NCBI GenBank assembly: GCA_011389855.1
Contig: JAABTM010000020.1
Span: 1-35,472 of the forward strand
Reading direction: 5' to 3'
Source: Desulfobacteraceae bacterium
Lineage (GTDB): Bacteria; Desulfobacterota; Desulfobacteria; Desulfobacterales; JAABSP01
Length of the DNA: 35,472 bases
Under the pieces are notes generated by a model. That model was not told the DNA's origin. It searched no databases and saw nothing but the letters and a program-made list of their open reading frames with translations. A program made the translations under genes and the position numbers. Below are positions 12,408 to 14,748 of the stretch, piece after piece (the stretch's first letter is position 1; the number at the start of each line of letters is the position of its first letter).

Positions 12408-13430
12408 TTACAGATAATCGGAGGCCAGCAGCTGGGCGATCTGGACGGCGTTGGTGGCCGCCCCTTTGCGGATGTTGTCCGCCACCACCCACATGTCGAG
12501 GCCGTTTTCGATGGAGATGTCCTTCCGAAGGCGGCCCACCAGGGTCATATCCTGGCCGGCCCCGTCGATGGCCATGGGGTAGACGTCGTTGGCCGGGTCG
12601 TCCACCACCTTGACGCCGGGGGCGTTTTCCAGCAGCGCCCGGGCCGCTTCGGCCGAGAGCGGATCCCGGGTCTCCACATTGACGGCCTCGGAATGGCCGT
12701 AAAAGACCGGCACCCGGACGGTGGTGGCGGTCACGGCGATGCGGTCGTCCTCCAGGATCTTCCGGGTTTCGTTGACCATCTTCATTTCTTCCCCGGTGTA
12801 GCCGTTTTCCTGGAACTTGTCGATGTGGGGAAGGCAATTGAAGGCGATCCGGTGGGGGTAGACCTTCTCCTTGTAATCGAGAAAGTTGATCATGGCCCGG
12901 GTCCCGTCGAAGAGTTCGTCCACCGCCTTTTTGCCGGTGCCGGAAACAGCCTGGTAGGTGGCCACCACGATCCGCTTGATGCCGGCCTTCCGGTAGATCG
13001 GGTTGAGGGCCACCACCATCTGGATGGTGGAGCAGTTGGGGTTGGCGATGATCCCTTTTTTGGTGTAGCCGGCGATGGCGTGAGGGTTGACTTCGGGCAC
13101 GACTAACGGCACGTCGGGGTCCATCCGCCAGGCGCTGGAATTGTCCACCACCACGCACCCGCTCTTTGCCGCCGCCGGGGCGAACCGCCGGCTGGTCCCG
13201 CCGCCGGCGGAGAAGATGGCGATGTCCACGCCCTTGAAGGAGGACTCGGTCAGTTCTTCCACTTCCACGTCGTTGCCTTTGAACCGCAGCCGGCGGCCCG
13301 CCGAGCGGGCGGAGGCCATAAGGCGGAGACCGTTCAGGGGAAAGTCGCTTTCTTCCAGGCAGGCGATCATCTGATTGCCCACCGCCCCGGTGGCGCCGAC
13401 AACCGCCACATTCAATTTTTTCTGCGTCAT
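12408..13430 (-). CDS. asd: Aspartate-semialdehyde dehydrogenase
   Basis: LNVAVVGATGAVGNQMIACLEE...SAGGGTSRRFAPAAAKSGCVVVDNSSAWRMDPDVPLVVPEVN...NPNCSTIQMVVAL. Confidence 0.97.
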   Translation of the reverse strand: MTQKKLNVAVVGATGAVGNQMIACLEESDFPLNGLRLMASARSAGRRLRFKGNDVEVEELTESSFKGVDIAIFSAGGGTSRRFAPAAAKSGCVVVDNSSAWRMDPDVPLVVPEVNPHAIAGYTKKGIIANPNCSTIQMVVALNPIYRKAGIKRIVVATYQAVSGTGKKAVDELFDGTRAMINFLDYKEKVYPHRIAFNCLPHIDKFQENGYTGEEMKMVNETRKILEDDRIAVTATTVRVPVFYGHSEAVNVETRDPLSAEAARALLENAPGVKVVDDPANDVYPMAIDGAGQDMTLVGRLRKDISIENGLDMWVVADNIRKGAATNAVQIAQLLASDYL

Positions 13431-13455
13431 GATGTTCGCCTTCCTTCCCGCGAAG

Positions 13456-13587
13456 ATGTAAAGCCAATACCCGTGAACGAATTCTCAGTAGAACAGCCTT
13501 CCAGGCTGTTCAAACAGCCTGGAAGGCTGTTTTACGGGTAAAAAACCGACTGAATCTCATTCATTCACGGGTATTGGATGTAAAGCC
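13456..13587. mobile_element. MITE-like 114-bp palindromic element (13464-13577) flanked by direct repeats
   Basis: Terminal IR CCAATACCCGTGAA (13464-13477)/TTCACGGGTATTGG (13564-13577); direct repeat ATGTAAAGCC at 13456-13465 and 13578-13587; internal AACAGCCTTCCAGGCTGTT-CA-AACAGCCTGGAAGGCTGTT perfect 19-bp IR. Confidence 0.75.
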
Positions 13588-13602
13588 TGTCCGAAAACCG
13601 AA

Positions 13603-13647
13603 AAAACTTCCGACGCCGGGCGGGGTCGCCCGCCGGCCGGAAGTTTT
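13603..13647 (-). terminator. Rho-independent terminator downstream of leuB
   Basis: AAAACTTCCG...CGGAAGTTTT stem with GC-rich inner stem; T-tract on the minus strand (TTTTTTCGG). Confidence 0.8.
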
Positions 13648-13680
13648 CAAGGACTGGCGTCGAATACCGTCTAAGGTCGG

Positions 13681-14748
13681 TCAGATAGAATCGATGTGGG
13701 CCGCGATCAGATCGCCCACCCCGGAAGTGGAATACCCCATTTTCCCGGCGCCCACGTCCTCGATGTCGTCCCGCAGCGCCTTGATCACGCCGCTCTCGAT
13801 CAGAGAGGCGGCCCGGGTTTCGCCCAGGGTCTCCATCATCAACTGGGCCGCGGAGATCGCCGCTATGGGGTTGATGATCCCCTTGCCCGTGTATTTGGGC
13901 GCCGACCCGCCGATGGGCTCGAACATGGAGACCTTTTCCGGGTTGATGTTGCCGCCGGCCGCGATCCCCATGCCCCCCTGAACCATGGCGCCCAGATCGG
14001 TGATGATGTCGCCGAACATGTTGTCGGTGACGATCACGTCGAACCATTCGGGGTTTTTCACCATCCACATGCAGATGGCGTCCACGTGGGCGTAATCGGT
14101 CTCGATGTCCGGGTACTCGGCGGCCACCTCGTTAAACGTTCGCTCCCAGAGGTCGAAGGCGTAGGTGAGGACGTTGGTCTTGCCGCAGAGGGTCAGCTTT
14201 TTCCGCTTGTCCCGCTTCCGGCAGTAGTCGAAGGCGAACCGGATGCACCGCTCCACGCCCTTTCGGGTGTTGATGGACTCCTGGACCGCAACCTCGTCGG
14301 GGGTTCCGTATTTGAGGGACCCGCCGGCGCCGGCGTAGAGTCCTTCGGTGTTCTCCCGGACCACCACGAAATCGATGTCCGCCGGGCCCTTGTTTTTGAT
14401 CGGGGTTTCGACCCCTTCATAGAGCTTGACCGGCCGGAGGTTGATGTACTGATCCAGGTGGAATCGCAGCTTCAGCAGAATCCCTTTTTCCAGGATTCCG
14501 GGCTTCACCTCGGGGTGACCGATGGCGCCCAGGAAGATGGCGTCGGCTTTTTCCAGGGCCTGAACGGTCCTGTCGGGCAGGATCTCGCCGGTGGCCTTGT
14601 AGTGTTCGCCCCCCAGGCGGTAATCGGTGAAATTGAAGGTCAGGTCGCATTTTTGGGCCGCGACCTTCAGAACCTTGATTCCTTCGGCCACGACTTCGGG
14701 GCCGGTGCCGTCCCCCGGAATCACCGCGATGTTATACGTTTTCGACAT
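13681..14748 (-). CDS. leuB: 3-isopropylmalate dehydrogenase
   Basis: [23 protein letters not shown]...[15 protein letters not shown]...[32 protein letters not shown]...[21 protein letters not shown]. Confidence 0.92.

Follow-up and report, generated by a model that had tools for sequence, protein, structure and literature searches.

The window analysed here, a stretch of 35,472 nucleotides corresponding to contig C427 of the 5.26-Mb, 569-contig assembly of a Desulfobacteraceae bacterium, carries a palindrome between asd and leuB. Does this palindrome belong to the regulation of its neighbour genes, or is it a mobile element that inserted between them? The original prediction, made from the window sequence, correctly identified asd and leuB, both on the minus strand, and read the palindrome as a 114-bp MITE with perfect 14-bp terminal inverted repeats (TIRs). 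The palindromic element proved to be real, with slightly different limits. Its termini are CAATACCCGTGAA/TTCACGGGTATTG, and two nested inverted repeats were found at window positions 13459-13582, the outer one of 24 nt and imperfect and the inner one of 23 nt, the latter lying inside the TIRs as proposed. Because the base preceding CAATACCC varied among copies (G, T, A or C), we delimited the conserved element as CAATACCC...GGGTATTG, which gives 112 bp instead of 114 bp. The TIRs are perfect over 13 bp and imperfect out to about 24 bp, the outermost C/G of the proposed 14-bp repeats being part of the duplication. Direct repeats do flank the element, as the 10-bp GATGTAAAGC and not as ATGTAAAG or ATGTAAAGCC. 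These boundary corrections left the predicted sequence of the joined empty site unchanged. The MITE is non-coding, 112 bp being too short for a transposase. When folded as RNA, it reached -65.5 kcal/mol compared to -21.8 +/- 3.5 kcal/mol in shuffles (z = -12.5), a fold far beyond chance.

Table 1. Features of the asd-leuB region, in window coordinates.
Feature	Position	Strand	Remarks
asd, aspartate-semialdehyde dehydrogenase	12408..13430	-	TIGR01296; start codon (ATG) 34 bp from the element, which lies upstream of it
Left target-site duplication GATGTAAAGC	13455..13464	.	Identical to 13577-13586; sister copies also with 10-bp duplications
MITE proper, 112 bp	13465..13576	.	Ends set by comparing copies
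TIR, end type 1, CAATACCCGTGAA then CGAATTCTCA	13465..13477	+	Matches the right end of the IS L204 exactly over its first 23 bp
Internal palindrome AACAGCCTTCCAGGCTGTT, first arm	13492..13510	.	Occurs in these elements or in fragments of them
Internal palindrome, second arm AACAGCCTGGAAGGCTGTT	13513..13531	.	Only one palindrome in the 92-bp form
TIR, end type 2, CAATACCCGTGAA then TGAATGAGATTCAGTC (minus-strand reading)	13564..13576	-	Appears similar to the 3′ end of IS copies from desulfobacteria
Right target-site duplication GATGTAAAGC	13577..13586	.	10 bp
leuB, 3-isopropylmalate dehydrogenase	13681..14748	-	Neighbour

As the original prediction had anticipated, the genome holds multiple copies with different 10-bp flanks. 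BLASTN with the 114-bp query returned about 15 copies of nearly full length, 94-100% identical to it, along with dozens of partial or variant copies; copy numbers per genome were taken from searches and loci throughout. With at most one mismatch, the TIR occurred 49 times in this genome versus once for the reversed control. The copy on contig C240 was 100% identical to that of the window over 113 bp, suggesting recent transposition. Twelve full-length copies had both TIRs. Six of them were flanked by perfect 10-bp duplications of differing sequence and two others by duplications matching at 8 or 9 of 10 positions, when the chance per copy is 5.5e-5 for a 10/10 match and 3.6e-4 for a match of at least 8/10. 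The flanks of the other four matched poorly (3-6 of 10), which we counted against the MITE reading. When the perfect duplications of all loci and genomes were pooled, the 24 distinct ones gave a palindromic target consensus of about GNYTTAARNC, with a YTTAAR core and most of the information at positions 4-7. The inner palindrome occurred in these elements or in their fragments, fragment status being judged from the copy listings. The copies examined sat between ORFs, outside recognisable genes, and ten flanking ORFs searched against Pfam were ordinary genes (e.g. PheT, acetyl-CoA synthetase, peptidase M48 and release factor 3).

A sequence resembling the predicted empty site was found at the orthologous locus of G001, a genome of the same genus, where asd and leuB are adjacent on contig C21 without the element and CAGCGGAGTTG-GATGTTTGCC-CTTCCG aligns with the expected CGCGAA-GATGTAAAGC-CTGTCCG. 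The asd-leuB spacers of four other genomes (G002, G003, G004 and G026) contained no copy and were too diverged for an exact-site alignment. A single-copy element with no empty site and no related TIRs elsewhere, the outcome that had been named as contrary to the prediction, was not what we observed. These results bear directly on the view that the palindrome is a structured RNA (attenuator, riboswitch or terminator) of asd or leuB, conserved at the locus. Its very stable hairpin and its position in the asd leader would fit such a role. However, the same-genus genome lacks the element at its asd locus, many unrelated loci carry it, the window gave no Rfam match and no terminator-like site was detected within the element. 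The empty site and the dispersed copies refute an origin as structured RNA, and we regard this explanation as highly improbable.

A scan of the element for promoters and terminators detected neither a sigma-70-like promoter nor a terminator-like site, although promoters of this lineage may differ from the consensus. The proposal that the MITE occupies most of the asd promoter/leader region holds as a matter of position, no promoter having been found. In view of this negative scan, an influence on asd is unsupported, and the present effect of the MITE on this gene is probably small. Outside the element, at window positions 13590-13650, a stem-loop with T/A-rich ends (AAAACTTC...GAAGTTTT) lies behind leuB and is likely its terminator. 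This stem-loop is kept in G001 and also, with another sequence, in G002.

A search for an autonomous IS with the same ends had also been proposed. We scanned 85,462 species, each represented by one genome, for CAATACCCGTGAAYGAAT and obtained at least 100 matches, those listed including Desulfobacteraceae, Anaerolineae, cyanobacteria and others. Complete IS with MITE-like ends were found in other genomes at no fewer than four loci: L130 (1680 bp), L133 (1681 bp), L204 (1553 bp) and L211 (1546 bp). L211 is flanked by a perfect 10-bp duplication, GCTTTTATCC/GCTTTTATCC, of the same target type as the MITE. The transposases of the complete IS, of 456-484 aa and without frameshift, matched PF13006 (Nterm_IS4) and PF01609 (DDE_Tnp_1) above the cut-off, scored 162-180 bits against the NCBIfam IS4 family model NF033592 (cut-off 115) and carried the YREK motif (Y-2-R-3-E-6-K) in YHKRWDIEIAFDEIK; a PDB profile search with them gave no match. 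The MITE's C-type end and the right end of L204 share 23 identical bp. On our reading of the sequences, the T-type end appears to resemble IS copies of desulfobacteria at their 3′ end, with the stop-codon region of the transposase included. Only about 20-30 bp of the IS ends match the MITE, which was counted against the relationship, and no counterpart of the palindromic interior was found in the complete IS. In BH30, a Desulfobacteraceae MAG, many contigs break off just inside such IS ends, the pattern that a multicopy IS would be expected to leave.

The dispersed copies, their different 10-bp flanks, the empty site and the complete IS with the same ends all support the reading as a non-autonomous transposed element. 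We consider it almost certain that the element is a MITE, an internally deleted relative of IS4-family IS. The MITE would have kept both ends recognised by the transposase, and an IS4-type DDE enzyme acting in trans would have moved it by cut-and-paste. The cut-and-paste chemistry is assumed by analogy with the IS4 family. Insertion at a palindromic GNYTTAARNC-like site would then produce the 10-bp target duplication, and the transposase of such an IS would now be absent from the host genome or not assembled in it.

ISAs1 elements also make 8-10 bp duplications, and a transposase of that or another family could in principle move the MITE, its similarity to IS4 ends being convergent. The lack of any IS4 transposase of the group among the genes found in the genome would agree with this. 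On the other hand, 23 identical terminal bases are common to the MITE and L204, and both target type and duplication length are as in L211, so that we give this alternative very little credence. Least probable of all is that the element is no DDE-type MITE but an extragenic palindrome of the REP/BIME kind, mobilised by a tyrosine transposase associated with REPs. Its palindromic interior and mostly intergenic positions are offset by the TIRs and 10-bp target duplications, features that REPs are not known to have, and by ends matching complete IS4-family elements.

The IS4-derived MITE was then compared with known systems. The IS4 subgroup comprises IS of 1400-1650 bp with ends of the form -AATR--------WTW---- and direct repeats of 10-13 bp (De Palmenaer et al. 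2008, PMC2266710). The complete IS found here share with it YREK, Nterm_IS4, a length of about 1.5-1.7 kb, -AATR ends and the 10-bp duplication, but two of the four slightly exceed the published 1650 bp. Compared to the end consensus (PMC2266710), CAATACCCGTGAATGA matched AATR and left the inner WTW (positions 14-16) unmatched, with T/C-G-A in its place; the MITE itself also differs in having no transposase. According to the description in a review (PMC10969869), the Chunjie MITE of Geobacter uraniireducens similarly occurs as dozens of short, mostly intergenic copies that have direct repeats and conserved TIRs, alongside many partial ones, but it measures 178-235 bp versus 112 or 92 bp here. 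As described in the same review, SPRITE, RUP and BOX of pneumococcus are likewise short repeats with mostly intergenic positions and a tendency to cluster and nest, whereas no terminator-like site was detected in the present element. Searching the literature for the sequence of the TIR turned up no publication on this element.

The mobiliser was also sought within the lineage. Neither tblastn nor a four-transposase profile revealed a related transposase in the host or in its genus and family relatives G001 and G002. Matches appeared in only five of the 244 genomes of an order sample, as partial or interrupted copies in four of them and as a distant 27% match in the fifth; the broken copies of G026 (C140) and G133 (C126) lay next to a matching TIR. 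The MITE family looks orphaned in the host, or its transposase unassembled; the family may have outlived its transposase in this lineage, but the assemblies are draft and fragmented, and assembly often loses multicopy IS. Two candidates were rejected. The unpaired TIR ends of G001 (C85) and G002 (C3) lay by an ORF of about 430 aa that by eye reads as glycogen synthase-like and not as a transposase, and the sole DDE_Tnp_1 match of the own genome (C95) had no unpaired TIR in its locus. Three loci, L081 (G002, C3), L083 (G001, C85) and L089 (G002, C107), showed a single TIR end with an AT-rich interior beside the glycogen synthase-like ORF, L089 with a methyl-accepting chemotaxis protein-like start as well; no partner TIR end was found at any of them.

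Variant forms were present in several genomes. A 92-bp form, which has a single palindrome, is present in the own genome, G001 and G026, while the 112-bp form holds the palindrome twice in inverted order, from which we infer that it arose from the 92-bp form. G026 contains about 147 TIR ends. A composite unit, made of the MITE, GGTTTAAGGG and a further stretch of about 269 bp with the same TIR at its end, was observed at L006 (1501-1892, own genome, C201) and L062 (873-1243, G026, C373), 90% identical across two families of the order. The G026 unit has its own duplication, TACTTATACC, and MITE and neighbour hence appear to have moved together. At L069 (1240-1540, G026, C310), two tandem MITEs are separated and flanked by the same 10-bp target (GTTCTAAATC-like), which suggests repeated insertion at one duplicated target. 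The 10-bp flanks at L169 (357-583) are exact reverse complements (AACTTAAGGC / GCCTTAAGTT) instead of direct repeats, possibly because copies recombined or an inversion took place. Intergenic palindromes of a second family, GCCGGGGGCTAAACCCCCCGGCAA-like, were seen at L012, L019, L061 and L066, often nested with or adjoining MITEs. We lean slightly towards the broader view that an IS4-type lineage with TTAA-centred 10-bp targets gave rise, in unrelated bacteria, to parallel MITE families of high copy number (92, 112, about 130 and up to about 390 bp), and that composite units of MITE and neighbour DNA themselves moved, in some hosts with no transposase left.

The IS4-derived MITE family is apparently undescribed and unnamed, the kind itself being already known as an ordinary mobile repeat, and the understanding of how such elements work is unchanged. 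What is added is a well-delimited MITE family whose target consensus is clear and whose duplications are precise, and for which an empty site and complete relatives could be identified. It is useful for the annotation of Desulfobacteraceae genomes, where unannotated palindromes could pass for regulatory RNAs.
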